From Candidatus Zixiibacteriota bacterium (lineage in GTDB: Bacteria > Zixibacteria > MSB-5A5 > GN15 > FEB-12), in the NCBI GenBank assembly GCA_020351995.1, contig CP070674.1, forward strand, positions 895,686 to 959,685: a DNA stretch of 64,000 nt, read 5' to 3'. The position numbers and the translations under genes are program-made. The notes below the pieces were generated by a model. It was not told the origin of the DNA. It ran no database searches and saw nothing but the letters and a program-made list of their open reading frames with translations. Shown one piece after another: positions 1 through 9,001 of this stretch; position 1 is the stretch's first letter; every line of letters starts with the position of its first letter.

Positions 1-2
1 TT

Positions 3-1394
3 CTATTTTGCAACCGTGTTATGCTCCCGGTGTTCCGAGAACATCATAAATACGATTAATGACACAACCAGGCCGGGAAATATTGGCATGATCTCCAGCC
101 AGAAACTTTCATCGACCGTGAAGTATTTCGACAGATACCACACCAGCGACAATCCCCCCGATAGAACAATTGACCGAAATGCCCATCGCGATGGCAACCG
201 TCGCTTACCGACGAAAGAAAAGAACACCGGTACAAGAAGTGCCGGCGTGCCGATCGAGCCAAAGGCATACCAGATGTCGATCACCGATCTGAAAAACAGA
301 ACGATTGTCACCGCCAGAAGCACCGTTACAAAAAGGCCGATACGGGTGTAGTACGTTACCTTATTCTCCTCGATTCGAAACAGCCGCATGACAATATCCC
401 GGCTGAAAGTCGAGGCAGCCACGAACGAATAGGAATCGATGGTCGACATAACGGTGGCCAGCAAGGCCAACGCGAACACCCCCATCAGCCCCGCCGGCAT
501 AACCTTCAACGCCAGGGCCGGGTACGAACCCACCGCGTTTTCCAGTTCTGGCAGTATTGCCCTGGCATACAGACCACAGCTGGTGGTTAGAAAATCAAAA
601 AAGGTCCAGCACAAAATTGCCAGAAGGATACCCCGGCGGGCTACCTTCGAGTCTCTGGCGGCGTAACAGCGCTGATAGAATGTCGGCTCAATCAACGTCG
701 CCAGGGCGATCACATACCACACCGCGATATACCACCCGGAATTGCCGCCGTGCCAGGTGAAATGGGTCGATGGCACCCGGGCCGAGAGATACTCCAGCCC
801 ACCGTACTTGAACACCAACATCACCACCAGTGTCGCGAAACCCAAAAACATCAAACCGAACTGAAACAAATCCGTGCGCACCACGGAGCGAAAACCGCCA
901 AAATAGATATACACTACCGAGAACAGCGTCCCGCCGACAATCCCCACCCAGAACGGCCAGCCGAAGAGCTCCTGACAGAGAATGCCCATCATCAGAACGT
1001 ATGCCGCCGGAACCGTCATCACAAAAATGATAACCGAACCGGCCACGGCCGTCTTATTGTCATAGGCCTGCGCTAATCGGTCGGGTATGGTCAGTAACTC
1101 CGACTTACGGGCCCGCTCGGCGAGGAACATGGCAAATAAGAAGGCCGCCAGGTAGTATGGCACACCGAACACCAGCCAGTTCGACAGCCCGTAAAGGTAA
1201 CTGTACTCCCCGACACCGAGAATCCCGCCATACCAGGTCGAAACTAGGCTGGCCACGAACGCCGGCAAAGTAAGCACCCGGCCGCCGACAATAAGCTCGG
1301 TGGCCGGGCTGTCCTTTTTCAGGCGCCGGATGAACCCCAGCGTCAACAACGTGCCAAGGTAGACTGCTATCAGCAGGTAATCAACAAGATGCAT
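3..1394 (-). CDS. Sodium:solute symporter (SSS family), probable thiamine transporter
   Basis: This 463-residue polytopic inner-membrane protein has about 12-13 hydrophobic segments and the overall pattern of the SSS (PanF/PutP-like) family, which couples Na+ entry to solute uptake. It lies 6 bp downstream of the TonB receptor at 1401-3998 on the same strand, so both are probably co-transcribed from the TPP riboswitch at 4096-4176. From that context I infer that it carries thiamine, or a thiamine precursor, across the inner membrane after the receptor brings it across the outer membrane. SSS proteins have been predicted as thiamine carriers in other TPP regulons. The sequence alone does not identify the substrate. 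The stop codon TAG sits at 3-5, so the gene is complete. Confidence 0.85.
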   Translation of the reverse strand: MHLVDYLLIAVYLGTLLTLGFIRRLKKDSPATELIVGGRVLTLPAFVASLVSTWYGGILGVGEYSYLYGLSNWLVFGVPYYLAAFLFAMFLAERARKSELLTIPDRLAQAYDNKTAVAGSVIIFVMTVPAAYVLMMGILCQELFGWPFWVGIVGGTLFSVVYIYFGGFRSVVRTDLFQFGLMFLGFATLVVMLVFKYGGLEYLSARVPSTHFTWHGGNSGWYIAVWYVIALATLIEPTFYQRCYAARDSKVARRGILLAILCWTFFDFLTTSCGLYARAILPELENAVGSYPALALKVMPAGLMGVFALALLATVMSTIDSYSFVAASTFSRDIVMRLFRIEENKVTYYTRIGLFVTVLLAVTIVLFFRSVIDIWYAFGSIGTPALLVPVFFSFVGKRRLPSRWAFRSIVLSGGLSLVWYLSKYFTVDESFWLEIMPIFPGLVVSLIVFMMFSEHREHNTVAK

Positions 1395-1400
1395 CTGCCG

Positions 1401-3998
1401 CTAAAAGAGCTCCAGCATAAGTTGTCCGTAGAAAGACCGTTCCGCGGCCACGAAATACTCGGCTTCATGGATGTATGTCACCGGCTCACCGACAGCATCC
1501 GACAAACCCCAGGTCCACCCGTAACCCGATGATTCGTATTTCTTGTCAAAAAGATTGTCAACTCTCACCTGGAAAGTCAAATCGCCGGTACCAAGAAATC
1601 CCCTCACTTTGTAAGAGGCCGACACCGATGACACCACATGCGGATCGATGGCCAGCGAGTCGATGTTGAACAATTCCATGTATTGCTTCCCCACAAAACG
1701 TAATCGGTACGTTAAACGCCAGCGCTCGTCAGCATAGTCGGCAATCAGATTCCCCAGGAAATCGGGAAAACCGGGTATGACCTTATCCTTGTAGTCAATG
1801 CCCTCCGTGTACGATGACCAGTCGGGGAAATATACCTCAACATTGCCCACGTAATCTTTGATCCGGTTATAGTTCAGCGCGAAGTTCCCACTGAAAGTCA
1901 GTCTATCGACAAGCTGGTAGGCACCGGTCAGCTCCATCCCGGCGTGCACCGACCGATCGGCATTGGTGGTAATCGGAAGACCGGTGTTTTCGTTCAGGCC
2001 GCCATAGGGAATAATCTCATCGCGAAAATCCATCCAGAAGGCATTCATGCCGAATGCGTAGTCATCGGTCCGATACCTCCAACCTGCCTCAACATTGTAA
2101 ACACGTTCGCTCTTAGCGGTGGGATCACCGAAAACATATCCTATCGTGTCACCACCGGCATCTACCAGCGCCGATTTAATTTCCAGCGACGGAAGTATAA
2201 ACGGGTCGTTCGCGTCATATATGGCGGCATCAGTCGGTGTCCTCGATGACACCGCGAAATTGCCGAAGAAACTCATCCGGTCGTCCACCCTGTAGTTGAC
2301 ACCGAGCCTTGGGGAGAAAAACACCCAATCCACATTATAATTCAGCCCCAGGAAAGCCCCCATCCGCTCCTGGTCGAAATCATATTTCTGATAGCGCAAT
2401 TGAGCTGTTACCTGGCCCGAGAGCCGGTCGGTGAGATCATAGTACTCCTGCACATAAGCCGACCCGACGTACTTGGTGCCATAATACTGGTAATACCGGT
2501 GACGCGGATCAAGCGAGCCCGAAACGTTCTGCGCCCATACCACCTGACCCCAGTGATCGGAGCTGAAGTAGTAGAACGAACCACCGAAAGTATGGGTACC
2601 CTTATCGTGATCGATGTCCAGACGTGAATTCCAGCCGGTCTGATTCTTCTCCACCCACTGCTGACGGACCAGGTCACCCTCGGTATACGGCTCGCCGGTG
2701 GAAGGGTCTATATTAATGAGGTCCGGCGAGATGTTGTATTCATAGTAGTCACGACCATCCTTATACTGCTCGTAATATCCTTTACCCCGAATGTAATAGA
2801 GCGTGTTGTGCAGCGTCGTCTTATCATCAATGCGATAAGTGTTCTGCAACTGGTAATGCGGCTGGTTGAAATTGTCAGTCTCATTGTCATACGTGAGTGG
2901 GTTCGATCGACGGTCCAATTCGATAGCCTCCCGCGTGGAGCCGTAGTAAGCCAGGTGCATACGCATCGGACCGCCATAGATATGAAGCTCGGTGGTCATA
3001 CGCGGATCGAGCCGTGCCACTGAAAAATAATAGGCCCAACCTTCGTACCAGCTGTCGTGACGGTACCCCCCGGTTTTCTGACGGGAAAACCGCCCCGAGA
3101 AAAGCCACTTGCCGTCGATGAGACCACTGGCGTACTCAACACTCTGCTTGTAAACATCGCTGACCGACTTACCATCGCAGGTGTACTCACCGTATCCGGC
3201 TGTCAACGTCGTCTTGCGCTCACGGTCAAAACCGGTCGTTACGATATTGATCGAGCCCCCGAACGAAGCATCGCCGTAAAGGGAATTGCCCACCCCGCGC
3301 TGTACCTGAATATCCGAAACATTGGCTGCAAAATCCGGAAGATCCACGAAATATGTCGCCTGGTCCTCCGGATCATTGAGCGGCACACCGTTGATATACG
3401 TTACGATCCGTTTATCATCGAAACCCCGGATCTTGGTGTAGCTGTACCCGAGCGACGAACCGGCATCGGAATACGAATAGAGATTTGGGGTCGTGCTTAA
3501 CAGAAGCGGAAACTCCGCCACGGTGTAGTCGCGTTTGATTTCGTCCTTGGAGAAATTATCGAACGCCACCGGGGTAATTCCCGGCTCGGCCCGGTCGGCC
3601 CGTACCAGGATGTCTTCACCACGGTAATAAGCCGCTCTCAGGATGATCGTTTCGGGTAGTTGATCGATCTTGTATTGCTCGGAGTGAAAGCCGACCGACG
3701 AAAACGTTATCCTCGTAACGTCTCCGGTCCGGGTCAGCTCGAATGAACCGTCGATATCAGTGACCGCTCCGACACCGGCCACATCGGTTATTACGGAAAC
3801 CCCGACAACGGGATCCCCGTTGGAATCGACCACTTTGCCTTTCAGCGATGTGGTCGTTGCCCCCAGGGTCGTCCCGGCCAATGCCACAAGAGCGGCCGCG
3901 ACAACCAGGACCGACATGAACGTGAAGCTGCGCGCAGCACGTCCGTGTCGATCTGGATAAATCACACTGAGTGTCTTTAAGTGACGCTGAGCGTCCAT
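1401..3998 (-). CDS. TonB-dependent outer-membrane receptor under TPP riboswitch control
   Basis: An outer-membrane TonB-dependent receptor of about 865 residues. After a signal segment (about residues 27-45) comes a carboxypeptidase-regulatory-like beta domain (about 52-120, start GKVVDSNGDPVVG). The plug follows (about 145-260, with the motif YGDASFGGSINIV), and then a long beta-barrel that ends in the C-terminal aromatic residue expected by the Bam machinery (LMLELF). The start at 3998 is preferred to an ATG 12 codons upstream because GAGG lies just before it at good spacing. The TPP riboswitch at 4096-4176 lies about 100 nt upstream. Together with the adjacent SSS symporter this indicates uptake of thiamine or related compounds, similar in principle to the TPP-regulated receptors reported in Bacteroidetes. 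Confidence 0.92.
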   Translation of the reverse strand: MDAQRHLKTLSVIYPDRHGRAARSFTFMSVLVVAAALVALAGTTLGATTTSLKGKVVDSNGDPVVGVSVITDVAGVGAVTDIDGSFELTRTGDVTRITFSSVGFHSEQYKIDQLPETIILRAAYYRGEDILVRADRAEPGITPVAFDNFSKDEIKRDYTVAEFPLLLSTTPNLYSYSDAGSSLGYSYTKIRGFDDKRIVTYINGVPLNDPEDQATYFVDLPDFAANVSDIQVQRGVGNSLYGDASFGGSINIVTTGFDRERKTTLTAGYGEYTCDGKSVSDVYKQSVEYASGLIDGKWLFSGRFSRQKTGGYRHDSWYEGWAYYFSVARLDPRMTTELHIYGGPMRMHLAYYGSTREAIELDRRSNPLTYDNETDNFNQPHYQLQNTYRIDDKTTLHNTLYYIRGKGYYEQYKDGRDYYEYNISPDLINIDPSTGEPYTEGDLVRQQWVEKNQTGWNSRLDIDHDKGTHTFGGSFYYFSSDHWGQVVWAQNVSGSLDPRHRYYQYYGTKYVGSAYVQEYYDLTDRLSGQVTAQLRYQKYDFDQERMGAFLGLNYNVDWVFFSPRLGVNYRVDDRMSFFGNFAVSSRTPTDAAIYDANDPFILPSLEIKSALVDAGGDTIGYVFGDPTAKSERVYNVEAGWRYRTDDYAFGMNAFWMDFRDEIIPYGGLNENTGLPITTNADRSVHAGMELTGAYQLVDRLTFSGNFALNYNRIKDYVGNVEVYFPDWSSYTEGIDYKDKVIPGFPDFLGNLIADYADERWRLTYRLRFVGKQYMELFNIDSLAIDPHVVSSVSASYKVRGFLGTGDLTFQVRVDNLFDKKYESSGYGWTWGLSDAVGEPVTYIHEAEYFVAAERSFYGQLMLELF

Positions 3999-4095
3999 GA
4001 CGTTACCTCGCTTTAACTTGTTATAGTTTAGCAAGATTCCGTCCTGATTCGTGAGATTTGCCGGTATTTAGGCAGTGGGGATGTTTTATACATCT

Positions 4096-4176
4096 CCGTT
4101 TCCCTACGCCGGTATTATCCGGATCAGGTCGAGGGGGTATGTTCTCAGGCGGTATCTTTTTCGCCACCCCCAACGG
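4096..4176 (-). ncRNA. TPP riboswitch (THI element)
   Basis: Read on the minus strand, the segment has the conserved TPP aptamer elements in order: P1 strand CCGTT, GGGGGTGGC, the CTGAGA loop, ACCCCCTCGACCTGATC, then GGATAAT, CCGGCGTAGGGA and the closing P1 strand AACGG. The two P1 strands (4172-4176 and 4096-4100) pair perfectly. This is the classic THI-box signature that binds thiamine pyrophosphate and represses downstream genes. The aptamer is followed by about 97 nt of leader before the receptor start codon. A small hairpin (GATGT/ACATC, 4081-4095) follows at once. No U-tailed terminator is visible, so translational control is the more likely mode. Confidence 0.95.
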
Positions 4177-4291
4177 AACTATTATCTTCGCCTTCAATCT
4201 ACGAAATGAGCAACATGAAGGGCAAGGGAAATTTCAAAACGATTTCCGGAATGGTCCCTTTATAACGGATTCGGAAACGGACCCGACACCC

Positions 4292-7830: not shown

Positions 7831-8334
7831 CTATTCACCAAACTCTCCAACAAAATCCATCTCCCGCGATATCCCCCAACCCCGGGCATAATAGCCCCGC
7901 TCATAATAATCATGAATCGAGCTGTACTTCCACTGAAACGGATCCCCAACTAAATCATGTTTCACCGGGTTATAATGAATATAATCAATATGTCGATTCA
8001 TATCATCCCTATCACGAATCACATGATCCCAATACCGGTTCTGCCACACGCGACCACCGTACAAACCCACCCGGCCTCGATAAAGTCCCGAAAACGAAAG
8101 CTTCACGCGACGCATAAGAAGCGAAAGATCCTCGTCACCAGGGTCTATCAAAAGATGCATGTGATCGGGCAATATGACCCAGGCTGACAGGTCGAACGAT
8201 GATGTTTGTGATATTCTCTCAATCGCTTGCCACACAAGGTCATTATGGTCAACAAGTAGCGGAGCGCGTTTGTACGTGACATGCGTCAGAAAGTATACAT
8301 TACCCTTCTTATAATATCTGCGAATGTTTGTCAT
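7831..8334 (-). CDS. REP-associated tyrosine transposase (RAYT)
   Basis: A 167-residue Y1-type (IS200-like) single-strand transposase. The HUH metal-binding motif is HMH in LPDHMHLL, and the C-terminal half has the RAYT hallmark Y-I-H-Y-N-P-V-K-H after NRYWDHVIRD. Such proteins cut and move REP palindromes. The gene is flanked by direct copies A and B downstream and inverted copy C upstream, all sharing the core GTAGGTCGAAACCCCTG. The start at 8334 matches the usual N-terminus (MTNIRRYYKKG, then V-Y-F-L-T). The frame stays open further upstream, but there it runs through repeat C. It is full length with no frameshift, so it may be active. Confidence 0.92.
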   Translation of the reverse strand: MTNIRRYYKKGNVYFLTHVTYKRAPLLVDHNDLVWQAIERISQTSSFDLSAWVILPDHMHLLIDPGDEDLSLLMRRVKLSFSGLYRGRVGLYGGRVWQNRYWDHVIRDRDDMNRHIDYIHYNPVKHDLVGDPFQWKYSSIHDYYERGYYARGWGISREMDFVGEFGE

Positions 8335-8352
8335 CCATACTCGAGAATCTAT

Positions 8353-8405
8353 GTCGAAACCTCCCCCGCGAAGCGGGTGACCTGCCGGCAGGGGTTTCGA
8401 CCTAC
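8353..8405 (-). repeat. REP-like palindromic element, copy C (inverted)
   Basis: On the minus strand it begins GTAGGTCGAAACCCCTGCCG and ends GAGGTTTCGAC, so it shares both ends with copies A and B but has a different hairpin interior (CCGGCAGG...CCCGCTTCGCGGG). It lies just upstream of the RAYT start codon, in the opposite orientation to the other two copies. Confidence 0.8.
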
Positions 8406-8419
8406 TTGCTGCTGCGGTG

Positions 8420-9001
8420 CTATCTTTGATGAGCCCACTCCCGTATAACCGGTTCGATGTCCTCTGGCCCGAGAACGGATTTGGAAGCCAGGCGGGGGTC
8501 GTTACCTGTGTAATCCATATGCAAGCGGCCAATGGGATAACCGGAAATAGACTCCGGACCTGCCTCATAGGTCATCGTAATATGTTCCTTCATCTTACCG
8601 TCGACCGTTTCGTAATCCTCGGGACCCCAGTACATCAATTGTTCACCAGCCCATTCGAACTTACTGTCGATCAGGCGAAACGCGACTGTGCGGCTTATCA
8701 GCCCCTCATCTACATGAAGCATGGCATCGTAACCGTTACCGGCTCCCTCCAGGTATACACTGGCAGTGTCGGATATATCAGGAAATCCGAGCGAGTCACG
8801 AACGGTAATATCCATTGCGCCGAGCAACGGGATAACACGCTCATCGTCAAGACCGACCTTCTCCGGAAAGCCGCACGTCAGCAGCAGCAGTGACAACAGT
8901 GCCACCAACCAGACCAGCGGCGAATGCTTGTGAATTGAAATGGCAGGAGCATCTTTGCAGGAAGTCCTCTGGCCACGACATGTTTTATTTACTGGTTGCA
9001 T
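8420..9001 (-). CDS. Hypothetical lipoprotein
   Basis: A 193-residue protein of unknown function. A hydrophobic stretch (SPLVWLVALLSLLLLTC) ends in a Cys at about residue 43, which suggests a lipoprotein, though the region before it is unusually long and an internal start is possible. The mature part is acidic, with short beta-like phrases (DSKFEWAGEQLMYWGPEDY, YPIGRLHMDYTGNDP). I recognise no family. The start at 9001 is supported by AGGAG eight bases upstream. It is enclosed by the repeats at 8353-8405 and 9032-9059. Confidence 0.6.
   Translation of the reverse strand: MQPVNKTCRGQRTSCKDAPAISIHKHSPLVWLVALLSLLLLTCGFPEKVGLDDERVIPLLGAMDITVRDSLGFPDISDTASVYLEGAGNGYDAMLHVDEGLISRTVAFRLIDSKFEWAGEQLMYWGPEDYETVDGKMKEHITMTYEAGPESISGYPIGRLHMDYTGNDPRLASKSVLGPEDIEPVIREWAHQR

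Follow-up and report, generated by a model that had tools for sequence, protein, structure and literature searches.

A 64,000-nucleotide stretch of DNA from Candidatus Zixiibacteriota bacterium (GenBank assembly GCA_020351995.1, contig CP070674.1, forward-strand positions 895,686 to 959,685; hereafter the window) begins with a thiamine pyrophosphate (TPP) riboswitch, a TonB-dependent receptor and a sodium:solute symporter (SSS), all on the minus strand. We read this unit as a probable thiamine (vitamin B1) salvage operon for import across two membranes, with a probability of about 0.82; the substrate, the coupling to sodium and the switching are inferred from sequence. The receptor would take up thiamine across the outer membrane with energy from TonB, the symporter would carry it inward together with sodium, and a pyrophosphokinase encoded elsewhere would convert it to TPP; plentiful TPP would then shut the operon off. 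The new points are a conserved hairpin at the ribosome-binding site, the spread of the unit across many phyla with or without a thiamine pyrophosphokinase (TPK) gene, and a choline-carrier-like site in the symporter.

The aptamer occupies positions 4084-4181 (minus strand) and is the single RF00059 copy found in a search of the whole 3.6 Mb, single-contig genome. The first-pass annotation, made from the letters alone, had placed a full TPP aptamer at 4096-4176 and held that the lack of an RF00059 match would undo the claim. In cmscan the region scores 74.8 bits (gathering cut-off 54.3; E = 6.6e-13) over the complete model (positions 1-105), and only the boundaries move. Along the minus strand of positions 1-4181, the aptamer is followed by the receptor (1401-3998, 865 amino acids) and, after a 6-bp spacer (1395-1400), by the symporter (3-1394 with its stop codon, 463 amino acids), the order and spacing first described, now backed by Pfam and by coordinates. 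The Plug (PF07715), TonB_dep_Rec_b-barrel (PF00593) and CarbopepD_reg_2 domains all score above cut-off in the receptor. Its open reading frame spans 1401-4034 with a TTG start, but the ATG at 3998 is favoured because the ribosome-binding site and a GTC-ATG context are conserved there. The symporter belongs to PF00474 (E = 1.8e-32) and not to the PnuC family, PF04973. No thiamine-synthesis genes lie within the riboswitch-receptor-symporter unit.

Conservation of this arrangement was assessed in 41 genomes, comprising the window's own and 40 relatives, with an RF00059 threshold of E <= 0.001. A match was found in 39 of the 41 (above the gathering cut-off in 37), and a receptor lies behind the riboswitch in 39/39, one case (G017) relying on an incomplete aptamer at the edge of its contig. 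Riboswitch, receptor and symporter follow one another on one contig in 34 of the 39 riboswitch-bearing genomes, so the trio expected by the first-pass annotation is indeed present in relatives. The two genes are separated by exactly 6 bp in 14 of the 34 genomes and by no more than 90 bp in 32. In three further genomes (G008, G024 and G037) the contig stops within the receptor, and a second contig of the same genome starts in the receptor and continues into the symporter. A relative of the symporter (E <= 1e-50) was detected in 39/41 genomes; in G002 the frame ends after about 110 codons, the first 75 of them matching, and in G039 the gene runs off the end of its contig. The outcome named beforehand as fatal, a symporter grouping firmly with another substrate class and lacking the riboswitch in relatives, did not occur. 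In family f2, five of six genomes examined (G028, G031, G034, G037 and G039; loci L086, L085, L065, L061 and L083) carry tandem TPP aptamers ahead of the receptor, and G007 holds a second receptor-symporter pair (L097, G007:C111) on a contig that begins inside the receptor.

The arrangement extends well beyond this group. A species genome collection was scanned with 15 symporters, and the best 80 of 545 loci were retained. The 48 lowest-ranked of these (L137-L184, three of which, L139, L143 and L156, appear to belong to genomes already counted) were checked with Rfam and tblastn, and the other 32 (L105-L136) for receptor and symporter only. RF00059 scored above cut-off in 34 of the 48 distant loci, and in 34/34 both receptor and symporter lie beside it. 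A TPK gene stands between them in 16 of the 34. Ten TPKs were scanned with TIGR01378, seven from those loci and three from loci without a visible riboswitch, and all ten passed; the remaining ones were identified by tblastn. In four of the 34 (L154, L158, L161 and L173), all labelled Eisenbacteria, the symporter precedes the receptor. Among the 14 distant loci without a riboswitch, seven offer too short an upstream stretch for a verdict. An Acido-Lenti-1 RNA match was also seen downstream of the symporter at one Zixibacteria locus (L144:6017-6060, 37.9 bits, cut-off 37).

Genes for thiamine metabolism were then counted in the 41 genomes. ThiC, ThiE and the alternative synthase ThiN were each found in 0/41, with controls positive in 13/14, 11/14 and 5/14 genomes, respectively; the transporters PnuC/PnuT (PF04973; control 5/14) and ThiT (control 3/14) were also found in 0/41. 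Matches to PF08543 (ThiD) occur in 38 genomes and pass the cut-off in 29, but nearly all are weak and partial, mostly covering model positions ~118-225 of 246 (the window's genome, with its neighbours, reaches 27.1 bits against a cut-off of 27); they were rejected as true ThiD for this reason and are read as other sugar-kinase relatives. TPK (TIGR01378) is above cut-off in 36/41 genomes, this model being used instead of PF04265, which detects TPK poorly (16/41, the window's genome missed). The window's genome encodes four transketolase-type TPP-enzyme domains (Transket_pyr), and its TPK lies at G000:C1:524758-525330 (frame L185:1259-1882); a glucokinase gene overlaps the upstream end of the latter. 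Given the TPP-enzyme domains, the absence of synthesis genes from all 41 genomes and the TPK, these bacteria appear to use TPP, to lack the known thiamine routes and to be able to activate imported thiamine. The earlier salvage-only reading therefore stands, and is firmer because ThiC, ThiE and ThiN were not found in 41/41; so does the view that an SSS symporter takes the place of the PnuT of Bacteroidetes, since PnuC/PnuT was not found in 41/41.

These counts also bear on what is imported. Imported hydroxymethylpyrimidine (HMP), a thiamine precursor, is useless without ThiE or ThiN, one of which is needed to join it to thiazole, and thiamine is for this reason the best substrate. The idea that the pair imports HMP draws on ThiV, the SSS protein that probably carries HMP in SAR11 and is likewise controlled by a TPP riboswitch (PMC11452348); we rejected it, as neither ThiE nor ThiN turned up in the 41 genomes, and rate it very improbable. 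TPK acts on finished thiamine; it is present here and lies within the operon in other phyla. Furthermore, none of three HMP/thiamin-symporter residues is kept: SiaT positions 78, 139 and 254, for which PMC11452348 gives Tyr, Asp and Phe, correspond to F76, V133 and E236 in a pairwise, low-identity alignment read by hand.

Import of a phosphorylated form, thiamine monophosphate (TMP) or TPP, in place of free thiamine would suit the general ability of TonB receptors to import larger charged ligands, and ThiL is the enzyme that would use TMP. However, the enzyme seen in 36/41 genomes, and inside the operon elsewhere, is TPK, which acts on free thiamine, and position 236 of the symporter is acidic (E or D) in 114/114 aligned rows, which would disfavour a phosphate. 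We consider this variant very unlikely.

Regulation by TPP is expected to act through the leader between aptamer and receptor. In the window, positions 3996-4044 (minus strand) fold into a hairpin of -18.1 kcal/mol (z = -6.65; 0 of 200 shuffles equal it) in which the Shine-Dalgarno sequence is base-paired and which extends as far as the receptor start codon. The same hairpin, its 3' arm being the Shine-Dalgarno sequence and its end the receptor ATG, fits 18 of the 24 leaders of the window's family. These 18 match a pattern written after the leaders had been viewed, the other six being dropped; in their alignment (17 distinct sequences) 97.2% of the cells of the 13-pair helix are in standard pairs, compared with 36.7-49.1% in slid controls. 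The 5' arm contains ACGGAA (4037-4042), whose complement, TTCCGT, lies in the 5' arm of aptamer stem P1 (4173-4178, minus strand) and is its proposed anti-sequestor partner; the 3' arm of P1 bears another ACGGA. This shared complementarity suggests that the leader has two exclusive states set by TPP. Bound TPP would close P1 and leave ACGGAA free, so that the hairpin forms and translation is blocked; when TPP is lacking, the P1 5' arm would pair with ACGGAA and the ribosome site would open. Of 38 leaders, 17 have a 6-base match to the P1 arm, against an average of 4.8 and at most 12 over 200 shuffles, a count that is only suggestive because the leaders are related and the shuffles mononucleotide. 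In the sister family f4, a terminator-like hairpin followed by a T run is present in four of six leaders (e.g. L062, L068, L089 and L090); it was found in 0/24 leaders of the window's family, 0/6 of f2 and 0/2 of f3. Sister families thus have different output devices, a ribosome-site hairpin in the window's family and a terminator-like hairpin in f4.

The structural model of the symporter (pLDDT 89.8) matches SSS/LeuT-type folds. Choline carriers, namely CHT1/SLC5A7 and the bacterial sfCHT, share this fold, and three aromatic site residues align with theirs (PMC11589582, PMC13220886). A choline-type or other-cation carrier placed under the riboswitch for other reasons is nevertheless scarcely probable: W141 is replaced by V128, W254 by E236 and Y67 by a gap in the alignment, CHT1 no longer takes up choline when W141 or W254 is changed to alanine (PMC13220886), and the linkage to TPP riboswitch and TPK, which choline carriers are not described as having in the covered parts of these sources, is kept across phyla. 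For the thiamine reading, we put at even odds the fuller proposal that the symporter represents an SSS lineage of its own, specific to thiamine and separate from ThiV and PnuT, which would be the standard inner-membrane B1 importer in Zixibacteria and many neighbouring phyla (Ignavibacteria, Kryptonia, KSB1, Eisenbacteria, Krumholzibacteria, Latescibacteria and Fermentibacteria). Thiamine would sit in a choline-carrier-like aromatic cage of W54, Y80 and W375, with the two choline-site tryptophans replaced by the small V128 and the acid (E or D) at 236. W54 is not universal, being Asn or Tyr in 4 of the 114 rows (L074, L111, L095 and L125), although the alignment holds some loci twice and L074 and L111 are probably one locus. 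The motifs TWYGG and F-x-Q-R are conserved in the symporters of L105-L184, a result that is partly circular because the scan patterns held those letters. In a tree of 63 symporters, built without an outgroup and without ThiV, the receptor-TPK-symporter order requires two changes and the swapped order a single one; the six rows that lack linkage are spread over the tree.

Several observations weigh against a thiamine salvage operon under TPP control. The fold of the symporter is closest to that of choline carriers. Among the relatives, G016 and G020 carry the symporter away from the receptor, with no second riboswitch found, and in G032 receptor and symporter adjoin without an RF00059 match; in G035, also without a match, the symporter alone is visible, at a contig end. 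Two family relatives of these last genomes, G026 and G029, have RF00059 matches below cut-off. Farther afield, Rfam found no riboswitch in seven distant loci with at least 3.4 kb of upstream DNA (L137, L140, L168, L171, L172, L181 and L184; symporters of 46-51% identity), yet in L181 a TPK gene adjoins the symporter. The TPK frame of the window's genome contains one in-frame TAA after 142 codons, the open 142-residue part matching TPK_catalytic. Lastly, covariation in the leader hairpin is weak, with one two-sided pair (G-C to A-U, two sequences) that is matched in 115 of 500 shuffles.

ThiV and Omr reportedly go back to a 2002 paper by Rodionov. These and others have been treated as B1-linked transporters (ThiV, omr/omr1; PMC11452348, PMC2211319, PMC10881298, PMC6593275). 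The novelty implied in the first-pass annotation does not hold, since the arrangement has already been described in Caldithrix abyssi, where Cabys_3975-3977 unite a TPP riboswitch, a TonB receptor, a sodium-solute symporter and a TPK in one locus, read as thiamine transport (PMC5317091, 2017). The window shares the first three, whereas the TPK of its genome is not inside the locus but ~370 kb away. As far as the covered part of that account goes, high similarity to the thiamine receptor OMthi/Omr is given for the Caldithrix receptor only, and neither a ribosome-site hairpin nor a phylum-wide survey appears. SSS carriers of HMP or thiamine under TPP riboswitches were known as well (ThiV, PMC11452348; fungal Dur31, PMC5997356). 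Beyond Caldithrix, no literature report of the receptor-symporter-riboswitch set was found, with Zixibacteria searched under that spelling only.

A related system is that of Bacteroides thetaiotaomicron, where a TPP-riboswitch-linked TonB receptor, OMthi (BT2390), is likewise combined with an inner-membrane carrier and a pyrophosphokinase (pnuT-tnr3) and deletions raise the thiamine requirement; its inner carrier, however, is PnuT, and it also makes thiamine (PMC5613172). ThiV resembles the window symporter in family and riboswitch, but differs in its likely substrate and site residues and has no TonB receptor partner in the part of the source covered here (PMC11452348). Dur31 of Candida, also an SSF-domain protein, transports thiamine and is under riboswitch control in many species, but it is eukaryotic, regulated through splicing and without an outer membrane to serve (PMC5997356).

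Two further genes were recorded. A GreA-like gene is the next one on the same strand, 25 bp past the symporter and to the left of the window (L094:7187-7663), and might share its transcript. An IS200-like (Y1_Tnp) transposase-type protein is encoded at window positions 7831-8568 on the minus strand (32.8 bits, cut-off 23).

Taken as a set, the aptamer and the two transporters yield a prediction that can be tested for an entire group of uncultured bacteria, namely that its members would be thiamine auxotrophs relying on two-membrane import under one RNA switch. Since these bacteria are predicted to be thiamine auxotrophs, thiamine, and not HMP, should go into attempts at cultivation. The analysis further points to an SSS subfamily in which thiamine transport and the binding site are open to direct assay, and it carries what was a single passing annotation, in Caldithrix, over to many phyla.
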